Positions 16,330 to 31,523 of a stretch of DNA of 64,000 nt are shown here, piece after piece. The position numbers and the translations under genes were made by a program. The DNA is from Oerskovia turbata. Its GTDB lineage: Bacteria > Actinomycetota > Actinomycetes > Actinomycetales > Cellulomonadaceae. The stretch lies in the NCBI RefSeq assembly GCF_000718325.1, contig NZ_JOFV01000005.1, positions 317,847 through 381,846 on the forward strand, in the 5' to 3' direction. Positions within the stretch are counted from its first letter, which is position 1; every line of letters begins with the position of its first letter. The notes beneath the pieces are model-generated. The model was not told the origin of the DNA. It saw only the letters and a program-made list of their open reading frames with translations, and did not search any database.

Positions 16330-18945
16330 ATGCCCAAGCCCGTCCCCGGGTCCGCCCCCGCGACCCACCCCGAACCCTCGCCGGTCCGTCCCACCAAGGA
16401 CGACGTCGTGCTCCACGCCCGCTATCTCGAGCAGGTGCTCGGATACCTGCGCGACGGCACCAACGTCAACGTGGTCGGCATGCGGTCCTCAGGTCGATCG
16501 GCTCTCGTGCGCCGCGTCATCGAGAGGCTCAACGCCGGCGGGGCCTCGGTGACCCGCATCTGCGGGGTGCGCGCGCTGCAGGACCGTCCGCTGAGCGCGC
16601 TCGCCGTCGCAGGGGTGCAGATCGCCGCCACCCCCGGGCAGCTGCCCGCCCTCAGCTCGGCCGTCGGGTCCCTCGAGGTCCTGCTGTCCGCGCGCCCCTC
16701 CGTGCTCGTTATCGACGACGCCGACGACCTGGACCCCACGACGGTCGGTGCGATCGTCGCCGTCCACTCGCGCGCCCGGACACCCGTGCTCACCACGTCC
16801 CGTCCGGGCGGGCGCCGCCAGCCGGGTACGAGCGCCCTGACGGCCGAGCTGCAGCCCGGAGCGCGCGTCACCCTCGCCCCGCTGCGCTTCGAGGGGGTCC
16901 ACACGCTCGTCCACGACCTGCTCGGCGGCGCCGTCGACCCGGCCACGGTCGCGCGCGTCGCGGCGAAGTCGGGCGGGCTGCCCGGCCTCGTCGCGGCCGT
17001 CGTCGACACCGGCCGCCGGGAGAACCGGATCGTCCAGCGCGACGGGCTCTGGGTCACGCGGGACAGCCTGTGGACGACGGCGATGTCCCAGTCCGTCGAG
17101 CCGTTCCTCACCGACATCGACGACGCAGGGCTCGACGCCGTGACCCTGCTGTCGTTCGCCGGGACCCTGCCCCTGCGCACGGCGCAGCGCATGGTGGCGC
17201 CCGACACCCTCGCGTCGCTCGACGACGCCGGGCTGCTGCAGGTCCTGGCAGACGGCGACGAGCCGGTCGTGGGCGTGTTCCCGCCGCTCGTCGCCGAGTT
17301 CATCACCCACGAGGGAGCGACGATGCGCAACCTCCTGGCCCGGGACCGGCTCGCCGAGGTCGACCGGCACGTCGTCCCCGTGGTGCACGTGGACCGGGGC
17401 GCGGAGGCGGCGGGCGGCCCGCTCGAGGCGCGCCTGCTCGCGCAGCACTGGACCGCCGAGCGCGTCGCCCGACGGGATGCCTGGGAGAGGAGCGCGACGC
17501 CCGCGGCAGCGGTCGCGCTCCTGGAGTCGGTGGTCCTCACCACCGGAGCCCACCACGAGGTGGAGGCCGTGCTGCAGGGCACCTCCGCCGAGGGCACGGC
17601 GCTCGAGCGTGCCCGGCTCGTCGCGTGGACCGCGACCCACCGCGCCCTGTCGTCCGGCACGGCCGCCGGAGCCCTGGGCGAGGTCGACCGGTACCGTGGC
17701 ACGCTGCCGGGCTGCGAGAGCCTGCTCGACGCGGCGGCGATCGACGTCAGCCTCCTGGTGGGTGCCGTGCCCGCCGCCGCGCTCGACGCCGCGGCACCGC
17801 CCGCCGACGACGAGCCTGTCGCCCGCGCGGCTCTCCTCGTGAGCCGGGCGGCCGCCGCGCTCGCCGCGGGTCGCCCGGCCCGCGCCGACGAGCTGCTCGA
17901 CGCCGTCCCTGACGTGGACGGGCGGCGGGAGCACGTCGCCTCGCTGCGTGCCCTGTCGAGGCTGCTGGCCTGCGACGTGCGCGGCGCCGTCGACGATGCT
18001 CTCGCCGGGGTCGAACGTGCCCGTCGCGACCTGGCACCCGAGGCGCTGCACGAGCACGCGTACGTCGCCGGCTACGGTATGCAGCTCCAGGGTCGGGTCG
18101 TGGAGCTCGACGAGCTCACGTCGTCGGTCCTCGCGCTCGGCACGGCGCCACGGCATCTGCCGCACGTCCAGGCGGCGCTGCTGACCTTCGCCGCGAACGC
18201 CGCTGAGTGGCAGGGCAGGCGGGACTACGCCCGCACCACGGCCCTGCAGGCCTCGGCCCTGCGCGGCCCCCGTGGCCCGCACCCGTGGATGTCCGCGGAC
18301 CTGCTCTCGGCGCTCGCGCACGACGCCGACGACGACACGGCCGCGGACGCGATCTGGCAGGTCGCCCTGGAGCGGGCCGAGGCCGGGTTCCTCGCCGCCG
18401 CGGTCACGGCCGGTGTGCGAGCCGTCGAGCGTTCGCCGTCGGTCGAGCGGGCCACCCAGGTGGCTGCGATGGCGGCCACCTGCGAAGCGCCCCTTCTCAG
18501 CCGTCTCGCCGACTATGCCGTCGCGATCGCGTCGGGCGACGAGGAGCAGCTAGCGGTGCAGGAGTCGGCGCTGTACCGCGCGGGTCTGCGCCAGTTCGCC
18601 GTGCGGACCGCGGTCTCCCGGTCCGTCCTCCTGCTCGAGGCGGGCGAGGCGCAGGCCGCGCTCGAGCACGCCGACTCCGCCTGGAGCCAGGCGGGCCTGC
18701 GGGGCCGAGACCTGTGCGGGCTGTTCGCGCCGCTCGACCGCGCGGTGAACCTCACGGTGCGCGAGCGCGAGGTGGCCGTCCTCGTCGCCCGCGGGTACTC
18801 GCTCCCGGAGATCGCCGCACGCATGGTGCTCAGCGTCCGTACGGTCGAGAACCACGTCTTCAGCGCCAGCCACAAGGTCGGCGCGGACGGTCGCGAGGGG
18901 CTGGCGCGCGCGGCACGCACCTGGCTCACGTGCGGTCGGCGCTGA
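16330..18945 (+). CDS. LuxR-type transcriptional regulator with N-terminal ATPase domain
   Basis: The 871-residue regulator has an AAA/STAND-like N-terminal domain, a long alpha-helical (TPR-like) middle and a C-terminal LuxR helix-turn-helix: LTVREREVAVLVARGYSLPEIAARM then VRTVENHV, about residues 806-871. The Walker A stretch is G50-MRSS-G-R-S, with Arg56 where the catalytic lysine is expected; Walker B is LVIDDADDLD at about 127-135. Signal and targets are unknown. Start ATG 16330 has GAGGGAGA ten bases upstream; the open frame extends further 5' but overlaps the previous gene. It converges on fixX, and as the only nearby regulator it might control that operon, but nothing in sequence proves this. 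Confidence 0.85.
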   Translation: MPKPVPGSAPATHPEPSPVRPTKDDVVLHARYLEQVLGYLRDGTNVNVVGMRSSGRSALVRRVIERLNAGGASVTRICGVRALQDRPLSALAVAGVQIAATPGQLPALSSAVGSLEVLLSARPSVLVIDDADDLDPTTVGAIVAVHSRARTPVLTTSRPGGRRQPGTSALTAELQPGARVTLAPLRFEGVHTLVHDLLGGAVDPATVARVAAKSGGLPGLVAAVVDTGRRENRIVQRDGLWVTRDSLWTTAMSQSVEPFLTDIDDAGLDAVTLLSFAGTLPLRTAQRMVAPDTLASLDDAGLLQVLADGDEPVVGVFPPLVAEFITHEGATMRNLLARDRLAEVDRHVVPVVHVDRGAEAAGGPLEARLLAQHWTAERVARRDAWERSATPAAAVALLESVVLTTGAHHEVEAVLQGTSAEGTALERARLVAWTATHRALSSGTAAGALGEVDRYRGTLPGCESLLDAAAIDVSLLVGAVPAAALDAAAPPADDEPVARAALLVSRAAAALAAGRPARADELLDAVPDVDGRREHVASLRALSRLLACDVRGAVDDALAGVERARRDLAPEALHEHAYVAGYGMQLQGRVVELDELTSSVLALGTAPRHLPHVQAALLTFAANAAEWQGRRDYARTTALQASALRGPRGPHPWMSADLLSALAHDADDDTAADAIWQVALERAEAGFLAAAVTAGVRAVERSPSVERATQVAAMAATCEAPLLSRLADYAVAIASGDEEQLAVQESALYRAGLRQFAVRTAVSRSVLLLEAGEAQAALEHADSAWSQAGLRGRDLCGLFAPLDRAVNLTVREREVAVLVARGYSLPEIAARMVLSVRTVENHVFSASHKVGADGREGLARAARTWLTCGRR

Positions 18946-18968
18946 CGTCGGCGCAGGGCCCTGCCCGC

Positions 18969-19005
18969 GTGGTCCGGGCGTCCTGCCCGAGGGCGCCCGG
19001 ACCAC
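18969..19005. terminator. Bidirectional terminator between luxR-type gene and fixX
   Basis: A perfect 12-bp GC-rich inverted repeat (18969-18980 with 18994-19005) sits between the convergent stops. Confidence 0.7.
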
Positions 19006-19019
19006 CGGTGCGTGAGAGC

Positions 19020-19337
19020 TCAGCCCTCGCGGAGCGAGATGCCCGTGCCGCCGCGCGGGTAGCGCCAGGTGAGCACCCCGGGCTCGGCCACGGCGGCGCA
19101 GGCGCCGCACTCGAAGCACGCGGCGTACTCGACGGAGATCGTCCCGTCGGCCTCCTCCGCGTAGACCTTGGCCGGGCAGATCGCGACCAGCCGTCGCGCG
19201 CACCCGGTGGTGCGGGCGAGGTCCTGGTCGAGGTGGATGTGGCTCTCCTCCTCGTCGGTCTCGTACCGGTTGCCGGCCAGCCGATCGGCCACGGTCCCGA
19301 TCCTGAGCCCCCGGGTCACGGATCCAGTCGTCGTCAC
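19020..19337 (-). CDS. fixX: FixX-type ferredoxin-like protein
   Basis: The 105-residue protein is the last gene of the cai/fix-like operon. It has the FixX pattern: an N-terminal RLAGNRYETDEEESHI segment, CARRLVAICPAKVY, and AACFECGAC. Cys54, Cys74, Cys77 and Cys80 can hold one [4Fe-4S] cluster, and Cys46 is an extra cysteine. FixX accepts electrons from FixC in FixABCX complexes. The GTG start (19337) overlaps the fixC stop in a GTGA, which implies translational coupling. Confidence 0.92.
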   Translation of the reverse strand: MTTTGSVTRGLRIGTVADRLAGNRYETDEEESHIHLDQDLARTTGCARRLVAICPAKVYAEEADGTISVEYAACFECGACAAVAEPGVLTWRYPRGGTGISLREG

Positions 19338-20638
19338 AGCGCACGCACCCCCGCCAGCCCGTCGGAGAACAGGTCCCGCAGGCGCACGGGCGAGCGCTTG
19401 AAGGCCCTCTTCGCCACGTCGCGCAGATGGCGGCGCGGACTGAGGTCGTGGTTGAAGGCGCCGTACATGATGTCGGCGAGGAGCGAGCCGTACTGCTCGT
19501 ACATGCGCTCGCGCTCGAGGAACGCGGGCGCCTTGGCGTAGGTCTGCATGTCCTGTCCGGCGAACGACGCGGTCAGCGCCGTCCGATACCCCGCCAGCCC
19601 GGCCTTGGACGTGTCTCCCGCAGCCAGCGCCGCATCGATCCCCGTGGCCGCGGCGATGCCGGAGGCCGCGGCGAGGTCCATGCCGCGGACGGTCAGGCCC
19701 GTGTTGAGCGTCAGGCCCGCGGCGTCGCCCACGACGACCATGCCGTCCGTGGTGATCTCGCGGACCATGTCCAGGCCGCCCTCGGCGACCAGGTGGCTCG
19801 CGTACTCCGACACCTCGCCGCCCGCGAGCAGCGGGGCGACGAACGGGTGGGTCAGGAAGTGCTCGAACACCTCCGACGACGGCACGCCCTTGGCGACGAG
19901 GTCGTCGAGCCGCAGCACCACACCGACCGAGATCGAGTCGCGGTTCGTGTACAGGAACCCGCCGCCGCCGATCCCGAGCGTGCAGTCGCCGACGACGGCG
20001 TAGGCCACGCCCTCGTCGTCGGCGCAGTGGAACCGTTCCTCGATGGTCGACGCGGGCAGCGAGACGACCGCCTTCACGCCGAGCGCCAGGTGGTTGGTCG
20101 GCTCCTGGGGGCGCAGGCCTGCGGCGCGCGCCAGGAAGGAGTTGACGCCGTCGGCGGCCACGACCACGTGGGCGCGCAGCTCGTCGTCGCCGGCGCGGAC
20201 GCCCACGACCTTGCCGTCCTCGGTGAGGACCTCGTCGACGCGGACCCCCGGCATGAGGAACACGCCGGCCTCCTCGCACTTCTCGCCCAGCCACGCGTCG
20301 AGCCGGGCGCGCAGCACGGTCACCGCGTTCACGGGGTCGGACAGCCGCGAGTCCTGGTAGTCGATCCCGACCGACGACGTGCCGTTGAGGAACTGCACGT
20401 AGTTGCGGGTGATGCGCCGCTCGACGGGGGCCTGCGTGAGGAAGTCGGGGAAGACCTCCTCCATGACCCGCGAGTAGAGCACGCCGCCCGACAGGTTCTT
20501 GGAGCCGGGCGCCTCGCCCCGCTCGATGAGCACGACCGAGCGGCCGGCCTCGGCGAGCCGGTACGCGGTCACGCACCCGGCGACGCCGGCACCGACGACG
20601 ATGACGTCGAAGTCGGGCTCGACCGCCTCGCTCGTCAT
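19334..20638 (-). CDS. fixC: FixC-type FAD-dependent oxidoreductase (ETF-quinone oxidoreductase family)
   Basis: The 434-residue flavoprotein begins FDVIVVGAGVAGCVTAYRLAEAGRSV (FAD Rossmann GxGxxG), followed by GSKNLSGGVLYSR typical of ETF-QO/FixC, and later GDAAGLTLNTGLTVRGMDLA, the second FAD contact. FixC takes electrons from the FixAB electron-transfer flavoprotein and passes them to FixX, quinone or another acceptor. Its ATG overlaps the fixB stop in an ATGA and its stop overlaps the fixX start. Confidence 0.94.
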   Translation of the reverse strand: MTSEAVEPDFDVIVVGAGVAGCVTAYRLAEAGRSVVLIERGEAPGSKNLSGGVLYSRVMEEVFPDFLTQAPVERRITRNYVQFLNGTSSVGIDYQDSRLSDPVNAVTVLRARLDAWLGEKCEEAGVFLMPGVRVDEVLTEDGKVVGVRAGDDELRAHVVVAADGVNSFLARAAGLRPQEPTNHLALGVKAVVSLPASTIEERFHCADDEGVAYAVVGDCTLGIGGGGFLYTNRDSISVGVVLRLDDLVAKGVPSSEVFEHFLTHPFVAPLLAGGEVSEYASHLVAEGGLDMVREITTDGMVVVGDAAGLTLNTGLTVRGMDLAAASGIAAATGIDAALAAGDTSKAGLAGYRTALTASFAGQDMQTYAKAPAFLERERMYEQYGSLLADIMYGAFNHDLSPRRHLRDVAKRAFKRSPVRLRDLFSDGLAGVRAL

Positions 20639-21534
20639 GACAGCGCCGCCGTGAGGGCCGGGACGACCTGGTACAGGTCGCCGACGACGCAGTAGTCGGC
20701 CTCGGCGAAGAAGGGCGCGTCCTTGTCGGAGTTGATCGCGACGACGGTGCGCGCGCCACGGGCACCGACCGTGTGCTGGAGCTGCCCGGAGATCCCCACC
20801 GCGAGGTACAGCTCGGGGGAGACCTGCTGGCCGGTGACGCCGACGTAGCGGTCGTGCGTGTACCACCCGAGGCCCTCGGCGAGGGGGCGGGAGCACGCGG
20901 TCTCGGCGCCGAGCGCCGCCGCGAGGGACTCGACGAGCCCGAGGTCGTCCTTGGCCTTGACGCCGCGTCCGGCCGACACGATGCGCTGTGCGCGACCGAG
21001 GTCGACGACGGCGCGCTCGGCCGGGCGGTTCTCCGTGACCGTGAGCGTGGGGATCGCCGAGGCCGTGACCTCGGCGATCGCGGCGCTGCCGCCCGTGGCG
21101 ACGGCACCGCCGTCGACCACGACGACCGCCGGGCCGGAGACCTGGTCGGTCTCCTGCGCGATGCCGCCGAAGACCGACCGGGTCAGCTCGACGCCGTCGG
21201 CCACGACCGTCACCGCGGAGACCTGGGTGAACGCCGGTGCACCGAGGACGGCGGCCGCGGCCCCCGCGAGGACCCGGTCCGCCGGGCGGCTCGAGGCGAG
21301 GACGACGTCCGGCTGGGCGGACGCGACCAGGGTGGCGACCGTCGAGGCGTAGGCCTCGACCGGGGCGTCGCCCGGCTCGCCGAGCCAGGTGACGGCGTCC
21401 ACGCCCGAGGCCGCGACGGCCTCCGCGACGGACCGCGTGCCGACGACGACCGCGGTGGTGCTGGTGCCCTGGGCGAGCTCGACGAGGGCGTCGATGCGGG
21501 CGTCCCCGGCGACGAGGATGTAGGTGGTGCTCAT
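20635..21534 (-). CDS. fixB: FixB-type electron-transfer flavoprotein alpha subunit
   Basis: The 299-residue protein has the ETF-alpha C-terminal FAD site: IVSAGRGVKAKDDL, ETACSRPLAEGL, VGVTGQQVSPELYLAVGISG, and VVAINSDKDAPFFAEADY with VVGDLYQVVPAL. The N-terminal half is shorter and more variable, as in FixB. With FixA it forms the heterodimeric ETF that feeds or takes electrons from the acyl-CoA dehydrogenase of the same operon. It starts 32 bp after fixA. Confidence 0.94.
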   Translation of the reverse strand: MSTTYILVAGDARIDALVELAQGTSTTAVVVGTRSVAEAVAASGVDAVTWLGEPGDAPVEAYASTVATLVASAQPDVVLASSRPADRVLAGAAAAVLGAPAFTQVSAVTVVADGVELTRSVFGGIAQETDQVSGPAVVVVDGGAVATGGSAAIAEVTASAIPTLTVTENRPAERAVVDLGRAQRIVSAGRGVKAKDDLGLVESLAAALGAETACSRPLAEGLGWYTHDRYVGVTGQQVSPELYLAVGISGQLQHTVGARGARTVVAINSDKDAPFFAEADYCVVGDLYQVVPALTAALS

Positions 21535-21566
21535 GAGGGTGTTCCTTCCCGGGAGATCGGGGGTGG

Positions 21567-22343
21567 TCAGAGGACGTTGTCGGCGCGCAGGGCGGCGACG
21601 AGCTCGGCGGCTGCGGCCACCGGGTCGGAACCGTCGATCACGTGCTGCTTGCGCGCTGCGAGGGTGGGGCGGGCCGTGGCGACGACCGCGGTGGCGGCGA
21701 CGGGTGCGGCAGGCGTGACGTCGGCGAGCGAGAGCACCTCGACGGGGCGCTTGCCGGCCGCCAGGATGTCCTTCATGCCCGGCACGCGCGGCACGACGGC
21801 GTCGGTCGCGGCCGCGAGGACGACGGGGCCCGTGGCGTGCAGCACCTGCGAGCCGGAGTCCTGCAGGCGCTCGACGACGAGGTCGCCCGCGCCGCCCGAG
21901 ATCGCCGTGACGTTCGCGAGGGCGGGCCAGCCGAGCGCGCCGGCGAGGATCGCGGGGACGAGCTGCGCGCCGACGTCCTGCGAGGAGTCGCCCGTCAGGA
22001 CCAGGTCGACGTCGCCGACGTGCTTGACGACCTCGGCGAGGACCGTGGCGGTGAGCGTCGGGCCGGCGCCTTCGAGCGCCGGGTCCGCGACGACGACCGC
22101 GCGGTCGAATCCTCGGGACAGCGCGGACTTGCGGGCCATCGGCGACGTGACGTCGGGGCCGCCCACACTGATGCCGACGAGCTCGGCGCCCGTGGCGTCC
22201 GCGAGGCGGCGGCCGAGCTCCGCGGCGACCGGGTCGTACTCGGACACCGACGCCTTGGCGCGGACCCAGTCGACGGTCCCGTCGGCTCCCACCGCGGCAT
22301 CCTGCGGGTTCGGTGCCCACTTGTAGGCAACGGCAATCTTCAT
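21567..22343 (-). CDS. fixA: FixA-type electron-transfer flavoprotein beta subunit
   Basis: The 258-residue protein starts MKIAVAYKWAPNPQDAAV, the FixA/ETF-beta N-terminus that contacts the nucleotide, and continues with AKASVSEYDPVAAELGRRL, LVLTGDSSQDVGAQLVPAIL and RVPGMKDILAAGKRPVEVL. In FixABCX complexes this subunit carries the flavin or nucleotide that decides between bifurcating and simple electron transfer. Its start overlaps the upstream MFS stop (ATGA), with AAGGAGATGG a few bases before it inside the MFS gene. Confidence 0.94.
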   Translation of the reverse strand: MKIAVAYKWAPNPQDAAVGADGTVDWVRAKASVSEYDPVAAELGRRLADATGAELVGISVGGPDVTSPMARKSALSRGFDRAVVVADPALEGAGPTLTATVLAEVVKHVGDVDLVLTGDSSQDVGAQLVPAILAGALGWPALANVTAISGGAGDLVVERLQDSGSQVLHATGPVVLAAATDAVVPRVPGMKDILAAGKRPVEVLSLADVTPAAPVAATAVVATARPTLAARKQHVIDGSDPVAAAAELVAALRADNVL

Positions 22344-23770
22344 CGTGATCCATCTCCTTGGAGGTCGCCGCGGGGTCCGCGGTCGCTGGTGGTGAGGGGG
22401 GTGCCCGTCCCCGTCGGGGAGTCGGGCGTCCCGGCCGTGCGGGGGCCGGAGCCCGCCCGCCGGCCTCGGACGCCGAGGCGCAGCGCACTGGCCTCGACGA
22501 GGGTCAGGCCGCGGGTCTCGGGTGCCCACAGCACCGAGACGAGCAGGCCCAGGCCGGAGATGACGGCGCCCGCCGTCATCGTGGCGCGGGTGCCGTAGGC
22601 GGCGAGGAAGCCGGGCAGCACGTAGGTCGAGACCACGGTGCCGATGCGGCTGAAGGCCATGGCGGCCCCGACGGCGGAGGCCCGGATGTCCGTCGGGAAC
22701 AGCTCGTTCGGGTACAGCCACTGCAGGTTGCCGGGGCCGCCCGAGAAGAAGGCGTACAGGGCGAGGCAGACGATCACGACGGGCATGGCGGCGGTGGGCA
22801 GGACACCCAGGACAGCCAGCGCGACGGTCATGATCGCGAAGCTGCCGACGAGCAGCTTGCGCCGCCCCATCGAGTTCGCCCAGAACATGGCCGGGATGCA
22901 CCCGACCATGAAGAACGTGCCGATGATCATCTCGCCGATCGTCGCCGTCTGGCCGGCTCCGAACCCGAACTCCGTCATGATCCGGGGGCCGAACGTGTAG
23001 ATCGCGAACATGGGCACGGCCTGGCACATCCAGATCGTCCCGACGAACAGGATCTTGCCGACGTACCCGCGGCGGAAGAGCGTCGCGTACCCGACCTTCG
23101 AGGTGGTCTCTGGCTCGAGCTCGACGTCCGCGCCGAAGATGCGACGCACGATCGCGCGCGCCTCCTCGCCCCGCCCCTTGCGGGCGAGCCAGCGGGGCGA
23201 CTCGGGGATGTCCCAACGGCCGACGAGGATGACGAGGCACGGCACGACGGCGCTCGCGAGCATCCACCGCCAGCCGCCGTCGACGTCCATGAGGAGGTAG
23301 CCGACGAGGAAGGCGACGTTCGCGCCGAGGTACCACGCGGCCGCGACGATGCCCATGGAGATCGCGCGGTGCTTGCGCGGGGTGAACTCCGCGATGAGCG
23401 ACGTCGCGATCGGGTAGTCGGCACCGATGACGATGCCGATCAGGAACCGCATGACGACGAGCATGAGCGGCGTGCCCACGAACGCGGTGCCGACCGAGAG
23501 GACCGCGATCGCCACGATGTCGATGACGAACATCTTCTTGCGCCCGATGACGTCGGTCAGCCAACCGCCGACCGAGGTCCCCAGGAAGAGGCCGACGAGC
23601 GCGGCCACCCCGACGACGGCCGTCCAGGTCGCGTCGAGGTCGAGCGCGGGGCCGAGCTGGATGAGGGCGACGCCGATGATGGACAGCACGTAGCCGTCGA
23701 GGAACGGGCCCCCCGACGAGAAGAGGGTGACCCGCTTGAGGAACGGGGTCATCTCGACGTCGTCGAGCAT
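22340..23770 (-). CDS. MFS transporter, sugar-porter/organic-ion type (operon-internal)
   Basis: The 476-residue protein has twelve predicted membrane helices. Family signatures are GGWLTDVIGRKKMF in loop 2-3, DIPESPRWLARKGR before the central loop (residues about 182-195) and SMGRRKLLVG in loop 8-9. PESPRWL is shared by sugar porters, bacterial aromatic/organic acid symporters and SLC22 carriers (which include animal carnitine transporters), so the class suits a zwitterion or acid but does not name it. The C-terminal 30 residues are polar and low-complexity. ATG 23770 is the only in-frame start after the previous gene. Confidence 0.9.
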   Translation of the reverse strand: MLDDVEMTPFLKRVTLFSSGGPFLDGYVLSIIGVALIQLGPALDLDATWTAVVGVAALVGLFLGTSVGGWLTDVIGRKKMFVIDIVAIAVLSVGTAFVGTPLMLVVMRFLIGIVIGADYPIATSLIAEFTPRKHRAISMGIVAAAWYLGANVAFLVGYLLMDVDGGWRWMLASAVVPCLVILVGRWDIPESPRWLARKGRGEEARAIVRRIFGADVELEPETTSKVGYATLFRRGYVGKILFVGTIWMCQAVPMFAIYTFGPRIMTEFGFGAGQTATIGEMIIGTFFMVGCIPAMFWANSMGRRKLLVGSFAIMTVALAVLGVLPTAAMPVVIVCLALYAFFSGGPGNLQWLYPNELFPTDIRASAVGAAMAFSRIGTVVSTYVLPGFLAAYGTRATMTAGAVISGLGLLVSVLWAPETRGLTLVEASALRLGVRGRRAGSGPRTAGTPDSPTGTGTPLTTSDRGPRGDLQGDGSR

Positions 23771-23829
23771 GACCCGCGCGGGGGCCGCGGTGACGACCGC
23801 CGCCCCCGTGGGGCGACGGTCGTCCTGGC

Positions 23830-24684
23830 TCAGGCCCACTCGATCACGCCGAAGTTGAGGAAGGGCTTGGCCGACGGGTCGTCGGCGTCCACCAGGCGGA
23901 AGTGCACCCGCCCGTCCTCCATGCGCCACATCTGCGTCGCCACCCGGGTCCCCGGCAGGACGGAGGCGGTGATGCGCGTCTTGAAGCGCTTGAGCCGCTC
24001 GGGCTCGCCCGGGACGAACGCGCGCACGAAGTGGCGGCACACGATGCCGGCGAAGCTCACGGCGTGCAGGATCGGGCGGGGCTGGCCGTTCTCGGCCGCG
24101 TACTCCCAGTCGACGTGCTGCGGGTGGTAGTCGCCCGAGAGGCGGTAGATCAGCGCCTGGTTCTCCGGGATGGTCTCGATGGTCTCGACGTCGGGCTCCC
24201 GGTCGGGCATCTCGACGATGTCCTTCGGCGCGGCAGGCCCACCCCACCCGCCGTCGTAGATGAGGCAGTCCCAGCTCTCGTTCGTGAAGAGAAGGTTGCC
24301 CTCGTCGTCGTAGGTGTCGCCGACGTGCTGGGCGAGCAGCCCCTTGCCCTCGCCCCGGTCGTACAGGCCCTTGAGCAGCACCTTGGTCGAGAGCTTCCCG
24401 TCCAGCTGGGTGATCGGCCGGTGGAAGGTGACGTCGAAGCTCCAGTGCAGCGACCCGGCGTAGTTATAGCCGTAGTCGATGGTCCGGGTGACCTCGGAGT
24501 CGACGATCGGCATCGCGGCGAAGGTCGGCAGGACCTTCATGTCCTTCTCGTACACGTACTCGAGGTCGGTGCGACCGTCGATCGCGCAGCCGGAGCCGAG
24601 GGCGAACAGGCTCAGGTCGCGGAAGGTGTACTCGCGCTCGAACGGGCCGAACCACTGGCCGACCATCTCGGTCTTGATGACCAT
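23830..24684 (-). CDS. Double-hotdog MaoC/hydratase-2-like acyl-CoA hydratase candidate
   Basis: The 284-residue protein has two hotdog halves like the MFE-2/hydratase-2 group. The C-terminal half carries YRLSGDYHPQHVDWEYA, matching the hydratase-2 signature with catalytic Asp185 and His190 (the usual Asn is His), then PRPILHAVSFAGIVCRHFV. Hydratase 2 adds water to trans-2-enoyl-CoA to give the (R)-3-hydroxyacyl-CoA. It lies between caiC-like and MFS genes, where enterobacterial cai operons would have the crotonase CaiD, so I infer that it hydrates or dehydrates the pathway's acyl-CoA. A thioesterase role is possible but the D-x4-H motif favours hydratase. Confidence 0.82.
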   Translation of the reverse strand: MVIKTEMVGQWFGPFEREYTFRDLSLFALGSGCAIDGRTDLEYVYEKDMKVLPTFAAMPIVDSEVTRTIDYGYNYAGSLHWSFDVTFHRPITQLDGKLSTKVLLKGLYDRGEGKGLLAQHVGDTYDDEGNLLFTNESWDCLIYDGGWGGPAAPKDIVEMPDREPDVETIETIPENQALIYRLSGDYHPQHVDWEYAAENGQPRPILHAVSFAGIVCRHFVRAFVPGEPERLKRFKTRITASVLPGTRVATQMWRMEDGRVHFRLVDADDPSAKPFLNFGVIEWA

Positions 24685-24775
24685 CGTTTCCTACTCTCTG
24701 CGTGCTCTGCGCGCGTCCGGGGGACGTGCGCGGGTTTCGGGATGCGGGAGCCGACCGGCCCCCGCGACGTCGACC

Positions 24776-26308
24776 TCAGACCAGCGCGGCCTTGGCGACC
24801 TTGAAGGTGTTGGTGCGGGGCAGGTCGTCGACGACCTCCACGATCGTGGGGACCTTGAAGTCCGCGAGGTGGGCGGCGCAGTGCGCGCGCACCTGCGCCA
24901 CGGTGACGACCTGGCCCGGGACGAGCACGACGAACGCCTTGACGGCCTCGTCGTGCACGGGGTCGGGGACGCCGATCACGGCGGCCTCGGCGACGGCCGG
25001 GTGCCGGGTGAGCACCTCCTCGACCTCGGTCGGGGAGACGTTCTCGCCCGAGCGCTTGACGAAGTGCGCGCGGCGGTCGACGAACCAGTGCCAGCCGTCG
25101 GCGTCCACGCGACCGAGGTCGCCCGTGCGGAACCAGCCCTCGGGGGTGATCGCGGCCGCCGTGGCCTCGGGGTCGCGGAAGTACTCCTTCATGAGCGTGC
25201 GGCCGGGCACCCCGCGCACCTGGATCTCGCCCACGGTGTCGACCGGGACCTCGTGCCCGTCGCCGTCGGCGATGCGCACCTCGTACCCGAGGCCCACGCG
25301 GCCCACGGACGGCCAGCGGCGCTCGCCCACGGGCGGGTCCGTGAGGACCCCGACGAGGGTCTCGCTCGTGCCGTAGGAGTTGAGGAGGCGCACCCCGAAG
25401 CGCTGCTCGTAGGCGGCCTTCTCCTCGTCCGTGACGGGCAGGTAGTAGAGGATCTCGCGCACCTGGTGGTCACGCTCGTCCGGGGCGACGGGCTGGAGCA
25501 TGGTCGTGCGCAGCATCATGGCGATGCTCTGCACCACGGTCGCGCGGTGCTCACGCACCTGCCCCCAGAACCGCCGCGCGCTGAACCGCTCGACGGCGAC
25601 CAGGGTCGCCCCGGCCGTGAGCACGGGCATGAGGGCGTTGAGCTGGAAGTTCACGTGGCACGCGGGCATGGTCGTCAGGAGCCGGTCCTGCGCCGTCATC
25701 GTGGCCTGCCAGTCGACGAACAGCCCGCTGAACAGCAGGTTCGCGTGGGTCAGCACGACGCCCTTGGGACACGCGGTGGAACCGGACGTGAAGACGATGC
25801 CGACCGGGTCCTCGCTCGCGAGCGGGACGCGGTCCACCAGGACGTCCGGCTGGGCGTCGCGGGCGGGGCCGTACGGCGTGGTGCCGGGGACGTCGTGCTG
25901 CGCGCGGGCGAGCAGGATGCGCGGGTCGCCGGCGTAGCCGTCCTCGGGCAGGACGTCGGGCTCGGCGACCACGACGCGCGCCCCGACCCGGCGCTGGACG
26001 TCGTTGCACTCGGTCGCCGTGCTGCGGGGGTGGAACGGGACGCTGACGGCGCCGACGAGCGCCAGGCCGAAGAGGCACTCGAGCATCTCGGGGCAGTTGC
26101 CGAGGTGGACGCCGACGTGGTCGCCCGGGGCGACGCCCCAGGAGCGGAAGAGGTTGGCCGTGCGGACGATCCGCACGGCGAACTGGCCGTACGTCCACTC
26201 CCTCACGACGCTGTCCCGGTCCTCGAAGACGAGGAAGGTCCTGTCCGCTGAGGTGCGGGCGAGCTCCTCCCACAGGTCTCGCAGCGTCCTGTTCCCCACG
26301 ATGTCCAT
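24776..26308 (-). CDS. caiC: CaiC-like acyl-CoA ligase (crotonobetaine/carnitine-CoA ligase type)
   Basis: The 510-residue AMP-forming ligase resembles Escherichia coli CaiC along its whole length as I remember that sequence: MDIVGNRTLRDLWEEL, RTANLFRSWGVAPGDHV, the P-loop FTSGSTACPKGVVLTHANL, FSARRFWGQVREHRATV, RFGVRLLNSYGTSETLVG, RRWPSVGRVG and DRRAHFVKRSGENVS. It would activate a carboxylate (in E. coli carnitine, crotonobetaine or butyrobetaine) with ATP and CoA. I chose ATG 26308 because CaiC starts MDI; a GTG at 26317 with AGGAA upstream is an alternative. Ninety-four bases separate it from caiB. Confidence 0.88.
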   Translation of the reverse strand: MDIVGNRTLRDLWEELARTSADRTFLVFEDRDSVVREWTYGQFAVRIVRTANLFRSWGVAPGDHVGVHLGNCPEMLECLFGLALVGAVSVPFHPRSTATECNDVQRRVGARVVVAEPDVLPEDGYAGDPRILLARAQHDVPGTTPYGPARDAQPDVLVDRVPLASEDPVGIVFTSGSTACPKGVVLTHANLLFSGLFVDWQATMTAQDRLLTTMPACHVNFQLNALMPVLTAGATLVAVERFSARRFWGQVREHRATVVQSIAMMLRTTMLQPVAPDERDHQVREILYYLPVTDEEKAAYEQRFGVRLLNSYGTSETLVGVLTDPPVGERRWPSVGRVGLGYEVRIADGDGHEVPVDTVGEIQVRGVPGRTLMKEYFRDPEATAAAITPEGWFRTGDLGRVDADGWHWFVDRRAHFVKRSGENVSPTEVEEVLTRHPAVAEAAVIGVPDPVHDEAVKAFVVLVPGQVVTVAQVRAHCAAHLADFKVPTIVEVVDDLPRTNTFKVAKAALV

Positions 26309-26402
26309 CCACCTCACCCGTTCCTCGGTGCGCCCGGTTCTCCGGGCGCGCTGTGTCGGTCGGCGGGTGCGCGCGGTCCTCGTCCCGCGCGCACCCGATC
26401 GC

Positions 26403-27608
26403 TCAGCCCCTGCGGATCGTGCCGTTCTCGGCGAGTGCCTGGATCTGCTCGGGGGTCCAGCCGGCCTCGGTCAGCACGGCGTCGGTGTCCATGCCGAGCG
26501 AGGGCATGGGGCGCCAGATCCTGCCGGGGTTGCGGGAGAACTTGGGCACGATGCCGACCCCCTTGACGGGCGTCCCGTCGAGCGTGTCCCACTCGACGAT
26601 CGCCTCGCGCTGGGCGACGTGGTCCTCGGCGAGGAGCTGGTCGAACTCCAGCACGGCGTTGGCGGCGATCCCGACGGCGGAGAACTCCTCCTCGAGCTCG
26701 ACGGCCTTCTGCGTGAGGCAGAACGCGTCCAGGTGGCGCTCGATGAGCTCGGCCTGCGGTCCGTCGAGCCACAGGGCGCTGGTGTCCTCGGGGTACTCCT
26801 CGGTGCCCCAGAGGTGTCCCAGGCCGATGCGCTCCAGCAGGTACTTGTTCTGCTTGACGCCGTAGACGCACAGGCCCACGAAGCCGTCCGACGTGCGGTA
26901 CTCGCCGATCCCGCACAGGTTGGGGTGGCGGGCGCCAGGGCGCGGGTAGACGGTGCCCGCGTTGAGGAAGTCCATCATGTAGTAGGCCCCGACCCGCATG
27001 AGGACCTCGTACATCGCGACGTCGACGCTCTCGCCCTGGCCGGTCGTGCGCGCCTTCTGCAGCGCGGCGAGCGCGGACGAGGTCACCATGAGCGACGTGA
27101 AGTAGTCGCCCACGTACGGCACCGCGGCCATGGGCTGATCGGGGGTGCCGTTCTGCGCCATGTACCCGCTGTAGGCCTGGACCGTGAGGTCGTACGCGGC
27201 GCGGTTGACGCGCGTCTCGACGCCGTACTGGCCGAAGCCCGAGACGTGCACGATGACCAGGCGCGGGTTGTGCTCCCACAGGATCTCGTCGGTGATCCCT
27301 CGGCGGGCGTAGGTGGGGCCCTTGGAGGACTCGATGAAGACGTCCGCGTCCTTGACGAGCGAGAACAGGACCTCGCGGCCCTCCTCGGTGAACGGGTTCA
27401 TCGAGATCGAGCGCTGGTTGCGCCGTTCCATCTCCTTGACGAAGGTGGTGTCGCGCATCGAGTCACCCGTGCGCGTGTTCTCGATCCAGACGACGTCGGC
27501 GCCCCACTCGGCCATGACGGCGGCCGCGGACGGGGCGGCGATCTCGACCGCCGAGTAGACGACCTTGACGCCCTCGAGGACGCCGAAGCCCGGGATCGGG
27601 CCGGACAT
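26403..27608 (-). CDS. caiB: CaiB-like class III CoA-transferase
   Basis: The 401-residue protein is collinear with E. coli CaiB (405 residues): LEGVKVVYSAVEIAAPSAA, AEWGADVVWIEN, SKGPTYARRGITDEILWEHNP, HVSGFGQYG, and PYVGDYF in which Asp168 corresponds to the catalytic Asp169 that forms the aspartyl-CoA anhydride. KFSRNPGRIWR and PSLGMDTDAVL near the end also match. CaiB moves CoA between betainyl-CoA species, so the cycle needs ATP only for priming. Its ATG overlaps the caiA stop (TGATG), which indicates coupled expression. Confidence 0.9.
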   Translation of the reverse strand: MSGPIPGFGVLEGVKVVYSAVEIAAPSAAAVMAEWGADVVWIENTRTGDSMRDTTFVKEMERRNQRSISMNPFTEEGREVLFSLVKDADVFIESSKGPTYARRGITDEILWEHNPRLVIVHVSGFGQYGVETRVNRAAYDLTVQAYSGYMAQNGTPDQPMAAVPYVGDYFTSLMVTSSALAALQKARTTGQGESVDVAMYEVLMRVGAYYMMDFLNAGTVYPRPGARHPNLCGIGEYRTSDGFVGLCVYGVKQNKYLLERIGLGHLWGTEEYPEDTSALWLDGPQAELIERHLDAFCLTQKAVELEEEFSAVGIAANAVLEFDQLLAEDHVAQREAIVEWDTLDGTPVKGVGIVPKFSRNPGRIWRPMPSLGMDTDAVLTEAGWTPEQIQALAENGTIRRG

Positions 27609-28741
27609 CAGCGGTACTCCTTGAGTGCTGCGCGGCCGGCGGCGAGGATCATCATCTCGTCGGTGCCGCCGGAGATCCGCTCCACGCGCAGGTCGCGGTA
27701 GAAGCGGGCCACGCGGTGGTCGCCGGTGACGCCGATGCCGCCGAGCACCTGGATGGCGTCGTCCACGACCTCGGACGCGGCGCGCGTGCAGTACAGCTTG
27801 GCCATGGAGCAGTCGCCCTTGCCGAGCAGCCCGTTCTCGGCCTTCCAGGCGATCTCGTAGACCATGTTGCGCATGTTCGTGAGCTTGATCTTCATGTTCG
27901 CGAACTTCTCCTGGATGAGCTGGTAGCGGGCGATCGCCTCGCCGCCCTGCACCCGCTGGTTCGCGTAGCGTGCGGCGTCCTCGAACGCGCACAACGCCCA
28001 TCCGTAGTCGCACGCGGCGACGAGGAAGCGCTCCAGGTCGAAGTCCGCGACGGTGCGCGCGAAGCCCTCGCCCTCACCGCCGAACATGTCCTCCTCGCGG
28101 AGCTCGACGTCGTCGAGGTAGATCTCGCAGCACGAGTCCATGCGCAGGCCGAGCTTGTCGAGGGGCTCCTTGCTGATGCCGGGGAGCGTCATGTCGACGA
28201 AGAACTCGGAGTACTGGTCCATGTCCTCGGCGTTGCGCGCCATGACGACGAGGTAGGGCACGTGCTTGGACGACGTGATGAAGGTCTTGTGGCCGTTGAG
28301 GTAGATCTTGCCGTCGCGGCGCGTGTAGGTCGTGGACATCTTGGCGAAGCTCGAGCCGGCGCCCGGCTCCGTCATCGCGAAGTTCCAGATCTGCTTGCCG
28401 GTGCCGACCAGGGCGAGGATCTTCTCGATCTGCTCGGGGCTGCCGACGCGCAGGACGGTCTCGAGCGTGGGGAGCTGGTAGAGCACGTACGTGGGGACGC
28501 CGAGGCGTCCGAGCTCCTCCCAGACCGCCGCGATCGTGGTCCAGCCGGCGTCGAGGCCGCCGCGGTCCTCGGGCAGGAGGATCGTGTCGACGCCGAGCTC
28601 GGCGAGCTCGGCGACGAACCGCTCCGGGTACTCGTGGTCCTTGTCGCACCGGGCGAAGTAGGTGTCCCAGTTCTCGCGGGCCATGAGCTCGCGGATTGCC
28701 TGGACCATCAGTTCCTGGTCCTCGGTGAGGGAGAAGTCCAT
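27608..28741 (-). CDS. caiA: CaiA-like acyl-CoA dehydrogenase (crotonobetainyl-CoA reductase type)
   Basis: The 377-residue flavoprotein is collinear with E. coli CaiA (380 residues): [105 protein letters not shown], and [28 protein letters not shown]. CaiA reduces crotonobetainyl-CoA to butyrobetainyl-CoA using electrons from FixABCX. These stretches are far closer to CaiA than to beta-oxidation dehydrogenases, judged by eye from memory. The start ATG is 28741 and the gene overlaps caiB. Confidence 0.9.
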
Positions 28742-28784
28742 GAGAGGGCCTTTCGTTCGGGGTGGTGGGGGAGTCGTGGTGCGC

Positions 28785-29750
28785 TCAGACGAGCGCGGCG
28801 GCCACGCGCCGGTGGAACGCGGCGCCCTCCGCGAGGACCTCGCGGGCCTCGGGCAGCATCCGCGAGTGGTGCAGGAAGCCGTGCAGGACACCGTCGACGA
28901 CGTGCAGACGGTGCTCGACGCCGTGCGCGGCGAGCAGCGCGGCGAGTGCTCGGCTGTCGTCGAGCAGGGGGTCGAGGGCGCTCGCCACGAGGTACGTCGG
29001 AGGGATGCCCTGCGAGAGGTCCGCGGAGAGGCAGTCCAGGGACGGGCTGCGAAGGTCCTGCGGGCCCGAGGTGTAGGCAGCCAGGTAGCCGTCGAGGTCC
29101 TCCGGTGCCAGCCCGTCCCACGCCCCGCCGAACAGTCGGCGGGACACGGAGTCGCGCAGGCCGAAGAGGCCGTAGTAGAGCAGGAGCGACTCGACCGCGG
29201 GGCCGCCGTGGTCGCGGAGCCAAAGGGTCGCGGCGAGCGCCAGGTTGGCCCCGCCGGAGTCGCCGGCGAACGCGACTCGTCCACCGGTGACCCCGATCTC
29301 GTTCGCGTGCTCCGCCACATGACGGGCGACGGCTGCGCACTCCTCGACGGCCTGCGGGAGCTTCGCCTCGGGGGACAGGGCGTAGTCCACACCGACGACC
29401 ACGGCCCCGGTCGCGTCCGCGAGGGCACGCATGATGCGGTCGTGCGTGTCGAGGCTCCCGACGACGAAGCCGCCGCCGTGGACGTAGAGGAGGGCGGCGC
29501 CGTCGACCTGCTGGACGGGGTGGTACCGGCGGATCCGGACCGGCCCGTACGGCCCGGCCACGGTGTCGTCGACGGTCCGCGCCATGCGGGGGCCGCCCTC
29601 GTTCCAGTACACGCGCTCGGTGGCGTACCGGCAGCGCTGCTCGCGGACGGTGGCGTCCGGGGCGAGCGCCGGTCCCTGGAGCCGCTCCTGGAGGGTGAGG
29701 ACCTCACGCATGCGGGGCGTCAGGCGGGCGAGGACGTCGACGGCGGACAT
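28785..29750 (-). CDS. aes: Aes-like acetyl esterase (hormone-sensitive-lipase family)
   Basis: The 321-residue alpha/beta hydrolase has the HSL-family oxyanion motif [17 protein letters not shown], the nucleophile [10 protein letters not shown], the acid in [13 protein letters not shown] and the His in [13 protein letters not shown]. It is strikingly like E. coli Aes, sharing [17 protein letters not shown] and [19 protein letters not shown]. Aes cleaves short-chain acyl esters. It lies between MFS 1 and caiA; its ATG overlaps the MFS stop (TGATG). In this setting it could release a free hydroxy acid from an imported O-acyl ester, for example an acylcarnitine-type compound, which is an inference. 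Confidence 0.9.
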
Positions 29751-31126
29751 CAGGCGTTCACGGGCTCGGGCTCGGCGGACTCGCCGGCGGCGAGAGCCTG
29801 TGCGGCCTCGTACCGCGCGTCGAGCTTCGCCTGGTTGGTGCGCACGTAGCGGTTGAGCAGCAGCGCGCAGGCGGACGCGACGACGGCGGAGCCCACGAGG
29901 ATCCAGAAGATCTGCGGGTAGGCCGCGCCTTCGTTCCCAGCGGCGTCGGCCTTGTCGATGATCGAGCCGAACCAGGTGCTCGAGAAGGTGTCCGGCAGGA
30001 AGCCGACGAGCGACACGACCCCGGTCGCGGCACCGAACGCGGCGAGCGGGACCTTGCCCTCGGTGAGCTGGGACGACACGATGCCGAACACCCCGTTGGC
30101 GATGAAGCCGAGCGCGACGCCGATCAGCGCGACGGACAGGATCAGGCCGGTGCCGGCGGGCAGGACGCCCGGCACGGGCACGATCGCGAGCACGGCGATG
30201 CCGGCGGCGGCGATCAGCGAACCGATCCAGATGACACGCGACGGCTTCTTCGCCCGGAAGGCGAGGGCGCCGAAGACGGGGCCGGCGAACAGGGTCACGC
30301 CGTACTGGCGCAGGACGCTGAGGATGTTGTTGAGCGTGGCGTCGGCGCCGAGGTAGGTCAGGTAGGTCGTCGCGTAGTTGACGCCCGTGTAGTAGAAGTA
30401 CACGAAGAAGACGGTGACCGCGGTGATGAGAACGACGGGGTTCGTCAGGGCGCGCCCGGTGTCGACGAGGACCTGCTTGGCGGAGCGGACGCTGCCGATC
30501 TCGCCCTCGAACTTCGGGATCATGACGAACGCGAGCACGCCGAGCAGGAGGATGAGCACGGCGTAGAAGAGGAGGAAGGTCCGGAAGGCGCCGGCGGCGT
30601 CGCCCGCCGCGCGGGCGAGGACCCAGGTGCCGACGAGGCCGGCGAGGAAGCCCGCGAGGCCGTAGAAGCCGTAGCTGATGCCGATGTTGCGCGAGTACTC
30701 GTTCTCGGCCGAGACCAACCGCACGAGCTTGTAGCGGCAGCCCCACCACAGCAGGATCGTGGTGATGCCCATGGCGACGAAGATCAGCAGGAGCGTGCCG
30801 TAGGACGGCAGCATCGCGTACCAAAAGGTCAGGGCCGCGGTGAGGACGAACCCGGTCGAGCACAGGGTGCGCATGCGGACGCGGTCGGCGACGAGGCCCG
30901 AGGGCAGGTAGCAGATCGTCGCGGTGATGGCGTAGGCGCCGAGCAGTGCGCCGATCTGCGTGTTGGACAGGCCGAGCGCGGACTTCTGCGCGTCGTAGAA
31001 GGCCTGCTTCAGGTAGGCCGGGCCGTAGATGGTGCTGCTCCCGGCGCTGACCAGGATCAGGATGAACCACCGACGGAAGGTCGTGAGGTCCGCGGCCTTC
31101 TTCTCTCCTTTGGCGACGATCGCCAT
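29750..31126 (-). CDS. MFS transporter, first gene of the cai/fix-like operon
   Basis: The 458-residue protein has about twelve membrane helices, starting RRWFILILVSAGSSTIYGPAYLK and with SGLVADRVRMRTLC in loop 2-3 in place of the usual G-x-x-x-D-R-x-G-R motif. It looks like the YihN-type/organophosphate-antiporter-like MFS group rather than a BCCT carrier, which is what CaiT is. Substrate unknown; uptake of the operon's substrate or exchange of product is inferred. GAGGAGGGCAC lies just before ATG 31126. Confidence 0.9.
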   Translation of the reverse strand: MAIVAKGEKKAADLTTFRRWFILILVSAGSSTIYGPAYLKQAFYDAQKSALGLSNTQIGALLGAYAITATICYLPSGLVADRVRMRTLCSTGFVLTAALTFWYAMLPSYGTLLLIFVAMGITTILLWWGCRYKLVRLVSAENEYSRNIGISYGFYGLAGFLAGLVGTWVLARAAGDAAGAFRTFLLFYAVLILLLGVLAFVMIPKFEGEIGSVRSAKQVLVDTGRALTNPVVLITAVTVFFVYFYYTGVNYATTYLTYLGADATLNNILSVLRQYGVTLFAGPVFGALAFRAKKPSRVIWIGSLIAAAGIAVLAIVPVPGVLPAGTGLILSVALIGVALGFIANGVFGIVSSQLTEGKVPLAAFGAATGVVSLVGFLPDTFSSTWFGSIIDKADAAGNEGAAYPQIFWILVGSAVVASACALLLNRYVRTNQAKLDARYEAAQALAAGESAEPEPVNA

Positions 31127-31523
31127 GTGCCCTCCTCAGAGCTGTCACGCACTCTCGTAGTGCGACGTGGACCACACTGCGCTCTCGAGGAGATGACAAG
31201 GGAGGGTTTCGGCGTCATGACGACAAGGTGCGTAGGGGGTGCTGCGGACCTGAGTAGAGGAGCGGCCGAGCTTGAGTGCGCGAACCTGCTTACCGGGCGG
31301 TCGGTTTCAACGGGAAGGCTCGCGAGGCCCGGAAACAAGCGGCTTGTACTTTTCTTCACAAGAAGTGGCGTACGTGCTCCGGTACGACCGGGCCCCCGGC
31401 AGGGGGCCGACGACGGCCCGGGCGCTCCCGGAGACCACGACGGCCGGTGCCGCACCCCGTGGGGGCTGCACCGGCCGCCGGGCCGCTCGAACGTGACGCC
31501 GCGAGACCCGCGGCGCCCACGTG
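31127..31523 (-). promoter_or_regulatory. Leader and promoter region of the cai/fix-like operon
   Basis: This 397-bp gap contains no gene that I can support. It holds several dyads: GCACTCTCGTAGTGC at 31151-31165, ACCGGGCGGTCGGT at 31292-31305 (12 of 14 positions fit the TetR-type palindrome ACCGACCGGTCGGT) and a perfect 13-bp palindrome ACAAGCGGCTTGT at 31335-31347. The stretch around 31330-31380 is locally AT-richer. I cannot name a convincing -35/-10 pair. The distal end carries the terminator of the M13 peptidase gene. Confidence 0.55.
31441..31477 (-). terminator. Terminator of the M13 peptidase gene
   Basis: A 10-bp outer stem (31441-31450 with 31468-31477) encloses a C/G-rich inner stem, about 45 bp after the peptidase stop in its direction of transcription. 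Confidence 0.65.

Follow-up and report, generated by a model that had tools for sequence, protein, structure and literature searches.

A caiABC-fixABCX operon with a MaoC-type hydratase in Oerskovia turbata, predicted to use acylcarnitines or carnitine as electron acceptor

Can a Gram-positive actinomycete reduce carnitine compounds with a gene set that has no homologue of the Escherichia coli dehydratase CaiD or antiporter CaiT? This question is raised by an operon in a 64,000-nucleotide stretch of the Oerskovia turbata genome (hereafter the window; contig NZ_JOFV01000005.1, host genome of 4.03 Mb). The original prediction, made from the sequence alone, described eleven minus-strand genes at 19020-31126, with overlaps or short gaps, as a complete caiABC-fixABCX-like operon. 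The coordinates of the open reading frames (ORFs) bear out this arrangement. The operon is complete for caiABC and fixABCX and incomplete for caiT, caiD and caiE, which have no homologue among the eleven genes. The four genes left unnamed in that prediction encode two major facilitator superfamily (MFS) transporters (MFS1 and MFS2), an acetyl-esterase-like hydrolase (EST) and a two-domain MaoC protein. Import of carnitine compounds and their reduction to gamma-butyrobetaine is the most likely function of the gene set, and we assign a probability of roughly 80% to the reading that the operon serves the anaerobic use of acylcarnitines or carnitine as electron acceptor. Direct support comes from gene content, gene order, the family membership of CaiA, CaiB and CaiC, and the genomic linkage of MaoC to CaiB; the enzyme activities named below for O. 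turbata are predicted from sequence.

Identification of the carnitine enzymes

All three Cai proteins exceeded the equivalog cut-offs of the corresponding NCBI models. CaiA scored 684 bits against NF002885 (cut-off 540), with the runner-up PRK12341 at 460 against its cut-off of 537; CaiB scored 663 bits against NF002914 (cut-off 413; runner-up model 158) and CaiC 672 bits against NF005947 (cut-off 651; runner-up model 342). BLASTP identities to the E. coli proteins were 65.5% for CaiA, compared with 47.0% to YdiO, 47.2% for CaiB and 41.7% for CaiC. CaiB also matched PDB entry 1xk6 (E 1.5e-124), and its residue Asp168 aligned with the catalytic aspartate of E. coli CaiB (Asp169), so that the predicted retention of this residue holds. 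The lengths, which had been called the same as in E. coli, are only close to those of the K-12 proteins (377 versus 380, 401 versus 405 and 513 versus 517 amino acids for CaiA, CaiB and CaiC, respectively).

To place CaiA and CaiB among their relatives, trees were built from 24 of 31 loci that had been picked by similarity to the window CaiB and are hence biased to its kin. Loci L050, L051, L054, L055, L060 and L062, which are likely near copies, and L033, from the window's kin, were left out. In the CaiA tree, the 26 carnitine rows, E. coli CaiA among them, stood apart from YdiO with support of 81/96 and in 83% of bootstrap trees, relative to a small outgroup of three rows, two of them very long (two of the four own acyl-CoA dehydrogenase stretches matched nothing). 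The CaiB tree, from which L063 was dropped by length, separated 25 rows including E. coli CaiB from 16 other actinobacterial CoA-transferases with support of 100/100, this outgroup representing 16 of 29 other CoA-transferase loci. Such trees had been proposed as a check on the original prediction, and they place CaiA and CaiB within the carnitine clade; CaiC is assigned by model score and identity. Together, the equivalog scores and trees support the proposal that a Gram-positive bacterium has a CoA-dependent pathway of carnitine type linked to FixABCX.

Conservation and distribution of the gene set

All eleven genes were found in the window's order and on one strand in 21 of the 31 loci (L034, L035, L038, L040, L041, L044-L052, L054-L056 and L060-L063, with CaiB of L063 matching in two pieces), so the association is more than chance. 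The other loci are cut by contig ends (L033, L053), rearranged (L036, L037, L039, L042, L057, L058) or without MFS2 (L043) or MaoC (L059). Individually, MaoC was present in 30 of the 31 loci, MFS1 in 29 (the L036 copy at 30% identity), MFS2 in 29 and EST in 28. Carriers include relatives of Cellulomonas and Sanguibacter, Actinomycetaceae, Propionibacteriaceae and Coriobacteriia, with rearranged versions in Bacillota. The 11.4 kb from maoC upstream is 96.5% identical at the DNA level to a contig of Oerskovia rustica ending just past maoC.

Distribution is patchy. Among 394 genomes sampled from the class, CaiB exceeded its cut-off in the window's own genome only, and it did so in 8 of 396 sampled Actinomycetota genomes. 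A MaoC match at E<=1e-50 was found in 7 of 396 Actinomycetota genomes, taken as the same draw on the basis of equal sample size and matching handles; all seven are among the eight CaiB genomes, with MaoC about 2.2 kb or less from CaiB. A search of 72,556 plasmid records returned 2 matches for MaoC and 12 for CaiB (9 Escherichia, 2 Proteus, 1 Curtobacterium), and only the Curtobacterium plasmid, in which caiB is broken, carried both.

That plasmid (NZ_CP126272) holds a partial cluster (L071:7562-12711) of MFS1, caiC, maoC and a caiB that tblastn matched in two pieces and that has no gene annotation. Neither caiA nor any fix gene was matched within the 19.2 kb stretch; an annotated metallo-beta-lactamase (MBL)-fold gene follows maoC (L071:12887-13519). 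An extra gene, MBL-fold hydrolase-like by eye, follows MFS2 in the three clusters looked at for it, two from Actinomycetaceae and one from Propionibacteriaceae (L038:15213-16474, L045:14926-15633, L052:9284-10572), and a TetR-like gene lies on the opposite strand in L038 and L052. Loci L047, L050, L051 and L060, which look like near copies, have nearly identical gene coordinates and come from three Actinomyces records and one Trueperella pyogenes record; the latter may be mislabelled or mixed. The Actinomyces marseillensis record also carries an additional partial tandem MFS1-EST-CaiA (L047:4080-9978), which may be genuine or an artefact of assembly.

The MaoC protein and the handedness of carnitine

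The MaoC protein occupies the place of CaiD in the operon and has the double hot-dog hydratase-2 fold. Its catalytic dyad, D185 and H190, is kept in 25 of 25 cai-linked copies (the window and 24 of 30 MaoC loci, leaving out L033, L050, L051, L056, L060 and L063) and in 37 of 38 and 38 of 38 sequences, respectively, in a wider alignment (A1, drawn from 37 of the 120 homologues listed of 3112 matches); P0103 has asparagine at the catalytic aspartate position. The surrounding residues depart from the hydratase-2 motif Y-R-L-S-G-D-X-N-X-L-H (PMC3823801). The window protein reads Y-R-L-S-G-D-Y-H-P-Q-H, with histidine for the motif asparagine and glutamine for leucine. This histidine was present in 25 of 25 aligned cai-locus copies, in 35 of 38 sequences of the wider alignment and in 114 of the 120 listed homologues, the position being phenylalanine in 3 and unread by the pattern in 3. 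As a possible signature we also considered the change of glycine to alanine at the position of human Gly-533. It occurs in 25 of 25 cai-linked copies, but glycine is kept in 8 of 38 sequences of the wider alignment and the change is not diagnostic; the motif histidine appears to be the better subfamily marker. Three MaoC relatives 52-55% identical to the window protein (P0113, P0115, P0119) have the motif D-x-F-K-V-H and may act on another substrate.

A stereochemical puzzle follows from the family of this protein. L-carnitine is the (R) form. The same spatial arrangement at C3 is named R in carnitine and S in a plain 3-hydroxyacyl-CoA, because the nitrogen-bearing C4 outranks C2. L-carnitine is therefore shaped like an (S)-3-hydroxyacyl chain, as are the products of crotonases, which are of the (S)-3-hydroxyacyl type. 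Hydratase-2/MaoC enzymes yield (R)-3-hydroxyacyl-CoA, according to the text available for PMC2698920. Given an (R)-making family and an (S)-like L-carnitine, the window MaoC would therefore be inverted, or act on D-carnitine or another hydroxy acid. We tentatively suggest, at slightly less than even odds, that crotonobetainyl-CoA hydratases evolved a second time, independently, as the cai-linked MaoC subfamily (Asp-x-His-Pro-Gln-His). To serve L-carnitine, such an enzyme would have to add water to the opposite face of the double bond compared with ordinary hydratase 2, and the cause would be the change at the motif asparagine together with that at the Gly-533 position found in many members. 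The enoyl thioester would perhaps be bound in a flipped conformation.

A search of the window's genome for CaiD gave two crotonase matches, which scored 61 and 66 bits where the CaiD cut-off is 500, and both were rejected as CaiD for scoring so far below it. MaoC is therefore the local candidate, and it would be the sole dehydrating enzyme if the pathway runs as drawn. Other clusters hold both types of enzyme. One example is family f66, in which CaiB shares 74-80% identity with CaiB of the Eggerthellaceae locus L059. Five of its six MaoC-bearing clusters have, no more than about 10 kb from MaoC, a crotonase with about 40% identity to CaiD, and a crotonase is also near the cluster in both loci without MaoC (L059, L094). 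None of these crotonases exceeds the CaiD cut-off, that of L059 scoring 200 bits against 500. A clean exchange of MaoC for CaiD between sister clusters was thus dropped, as the L059 crotonase scores too low and related clusters hold both enzymes; side by side, MaoC and crotonase fit either redundancy or a division of labour.

Proposed pathway, transport and electron transfer

We propose that MFS1 would import acylcarnitine and EST would strip the acyl chain. CaiC would then prime the pathway with CoA, after which CaiB would hand CoA from the product to incoming carnitine. MaoC, replacing CaiD, would dehydrate carnitinyl-CoA to crotonobetainyl-CoA, and CaiA, supplied with electrons by FixABCX, would reduce this to gamma-butyrobetainyl-CoA. 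MFS2 would move the product or another betaine. Acylcarnitine or carnitine is the likely substrate by analogy with a cluster of Propionibacterium freudenreichii for which metabolite data are described in the available text of Röder et al. 2024 (PMC11007987); in it, the MFS and hydrolase genes are associated with less acylcarnitine in yoghurt, chiefly octanoyl- and decanoylcarnitine.

MFS1 showed no useful similarity to CaiT, and it sits where P. freudenreichii has the transporter linked with acylcarnitines in that text; it is likely to function in acylcarnitine or carnitine uptake. EST scored 381.6 bits against the acetyl esterase model, just below the cut-off of 389, and matched the acetyl esterase PDB 3ga7 (E 2.1e-84); it is a likely acylcarnitine deacylase. 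In L037 and L039, both from Bacillota, CaiT occupies the MFS1-EST place. The window's operon has two MFS proteins and no CaiT, the sole genomic match to a betaine/choline/carnitine transporter (BCCT) being on another contig and 27% identical to CaiT. MFS2 is 58% identical over 429 amino acids to E. coli YaaU (L072:408-1739), whose gene lies directly after fixX in K-12. That MFS2 accompanies cai genes in different phyla hints at a part for YaaU in carnitine metabolism and offers a clue to the function of this E. coli transporter, which has no assigned role.

The fixABCX genes are the last four of the operon, at its 3' end. A search for Rnf gave one match of 42 bits, below the RnfC cut-off of 246. 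Several observations weigh against the pathway as proposed. FixA, FixB, FixC and FixX all fall below their NCBI cut-offs (FixX at E 3.5e-16, yet 59 bits against 166), and the E. coli proteins YdiR and YdiS are better-scoring matches to the window's FixB and FixC than E. coli FixB and FixC are (FixC is 46.3% identical to YdiS versus 43.2% to FixC). CaiC clears its cut-off only narrowly. MaoC is lacking in one of the eight CaiB genomes (G573) as well as in L059, and the (R) product of its family mismatches L-carnitine. Finally, in the available text on P. freudenreichii (PMC11007987), carnitine and some putative acylcarnitines rose and gamma-butyrobetaine was only putatively identified; dehydration is therefore not clearly shown in that organism.

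Alternative explanations

The MaoC fold is that of hydratase 2, and the (R)-3-hydroxyacyl-CoA made by this family (available text of PMC2698920) has the arrangement that corresponds to D-carnitine. An ordinary (R)-hydratase in a pathway handling D-carnitine, alone or beside L-carnitine, would also be consistent with the CaiD-like crotonase in five of six f66 MaoC genomes, as expected of two enzymes for two enantiomers. Natural acylcarnitines, however, are L-forms. The motif asparagine is altered in the cai-linked MaoC subfamily, the window's genome lacks a CaiD-like crotonase, and the reported P. freudenreichii link concerns acylcarnitines in yoghurt (available text of PMC11007987). On balance, we consider D-carnitine an unlikely substrate.

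A different 3-hydroxy or enoyl acid, handled by enzymes that are merely carnitine-like, would be compatible with the replacement of CaiD by MaoC and of CaiT by an MFS protein and esterase, as trees and models indicate kinship and not substrate. This is rather improbable, since CaiA, CaiB and CaiC all clear equivalog cut-offs and a cluster of like composition is associated with acylcarnitines in the accessible part of PMC11007987. The pathway could also run in reverse under air, with CaiA oxidising gamma-butyrobetainyl-CoA, MaoC hydrating the product and FixABCX passing electrons to quinone. Oerskovia is able to grow with air, and FixC resembles electron-transfer flavoprotein (ETF)-quinone oxidoreductases, although weakly by Pfam (its ETFQO_UQ-bd domain matched only below the cut-off). 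CaiA nevertheless groups with the E. coli reductase, and yoghurts with P. freudenreichii isolates carrying the two genes had more putative gamma-butyrobetaine, not less (same source, as available), which makes reverse flow very improbable. The anaerobic reduction of acylcarnitines or carnitine thus remains the favoured reading.

Operon layout and neighbouring genes

The eleven ORFs are collinear from 31126 to 19020, in the transcription order MFS1, EST, caiA, caiB, caiC, maoC, MFS2, fixA, fixB, fixC, fixX (Table 1); neighbours overlap by 1-4 bases or lie at most 91 bases apart. Overlaps are 1 base for MFS1/EST and CaiA/CaiB and 4 bases for MFS2/FixA, FixB/FixC and FixC/FixX. Gaps measure 43 bases for EST to CaiA, 85 for CaiB to CaiC, 91 for CaiC to MaoC, 77 for MaoC to MFS2 (35 with the alternative MFS2 start) and 32 for FixA to FixB. 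A LuxR-type gene converges on the operon end and is a possible regulator of it; homologues occupy the equivalent place in Sanguibacter (L035; 51% over 838 amino acids) and Cellulomonas denverensis (L034; 49% over 407 amino acids). A consensus scan of 18900-31560 gave no sigma-70 promoter match and a single terminator-like site, on the strand opposite the operon, and promoter and operator searches around the operon gave nothing useful.

Table 1. Genes of the operon and the convergent neighbour (window coordinates; assignments are predictions)
Feature	Position	Strand	Basis
MFS1, 458-amino-acid MFS transporter, first gene	29750..31126	-	Pfam MFS_1
EST, 321-amino-acid alpha/beta hydrolase	28785..29750	-	Abhydrolase_3
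CaiA, crotonobetainyl-CoA reductase	27608..28741	-	NF002885, identity to E. coli CaiA, tree
CaiB, carnitine CoA-transferase, Asp168	26403..27608	-	NF002914, PDB 1xk6, tree
CaiC, carnitine/crotonobetaine-CoA ligase	24776..26317	-	NF005947
MaoC, two-domain hydratase-2 protein at CaiD's place	23830..24684	-	D185, H187, Q189, H190, A208
MFS2, YaaU homologue	22340..23752 (start possibly 23794)	-	58% identity to E. coli YaaU
FixA, ETF beta-type subunit	21567..22343	-	Pfam ETF; 40.5% (BLASTP) to E. coli FixA
FixB, ETF alpha-type subunit	20635..21534	-	Pfam ETF, ETF_alpha; 38.1% to E. coli FixB
FixC, ETF-quinone-oxidoreductase-like flavoprotein	19334..20638	-	43.2% to E. coli FixC
FixX, ferredoxin-like protein, GTG start	19020..19337	-	36.4% to E. 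coli FixX
LuxR-type protein, convergent to operon end	16330..18945	+	GerE domain above its cut-off; AAA_16 below

Comparison with known systems

The window shares with E. coli the homologues of CaiA, CaiB, CaiC and FixABCX and a yaaU-type gene, MFS2 being comparable to the gene after fixX. E. coli differs in having two divergent operons, as the original prediction correctly stated for caiTABCDE and fixABCX, and in possessing the antiporter CaiT, the crotonase CaiD, CaiE and CaiF; its 12.7 kb cai-fix region has no annotated esterase or MaoC gene. A gene set of the kind found in the window would probably escape surveys whose markers are caiD or caiT from E. coli. Such omissions matter because the conversion of carnitine to gamma-butyrobetaine feeds a gut route to trimethylamine, according to the available text of PMC8364193. 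The bbu pathway is, like cai, a system of anaerobic quaternary-amine metabolism, and bacteria with bbu are stated to lack cai, and vice versa (PMC8364193, as available). In searches of the open-licence literature, from which absence from print does not follow, no paper was found on Oerskovia together with carnitine, none of the five papers listed for yaaU also dealt with carnitine, and carnitine, MaoC and crotonobetaine together returned only a paper apparently on thiodipropionate.

The closest published counterpart is in P. freudenreichii. Its cluster consists of MFS, hydrolase, caiABC, enoyl-CoA hydratase, MFS and fixABCX genes, and its MFS transporter and hydrolase genes are also associated with higher levels, in yoghurt, of carnitine, of putative gamma-butyrobetaine and of some other putative acylcarnitines; the authors proposed that hydratase and MFS might stand in for the missing caiD and caiT (available text of PMC11007987). 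From caiABC/fixABCX homologues, a reconstruction of propionibacterial metabolism likewise proposes that carnitine conversion serves P. freudenreichii and P. acnes as a terminal electron-accepting route (PMC7650540, as available). The cluster resembles the window's in gene composition, both lacking a caiD and a caiT homologue, and by family and order the two are assigned to the same kind. In its published description, as far as available, the name MaoC does not appear and no LuxR gene is mentioned; we infer a hydratase of MaoC type from the locus of Brooklawnia (L052), a member of the Propionibacteriaceae with all eleven genes including MaoC. Human MFE-2 (1s9c) and Mycobacterium tuberculosis MaoC (3khp) share the fold and the Asp/His dyad with the window MaoC, which differs from these hydratase 2 proteins by histidine for the motif asparagine, glutamine for leucine and alanine for Gly-533. 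As the P. freudenreichii set is already in print, the cluster is not new in kind. Its distinctive feature is the hydratase, a hydratase-2 protein of a different family from the E. coli dehydratase, because the handedness of its presumed substrate does not match the products of hydratase 2.

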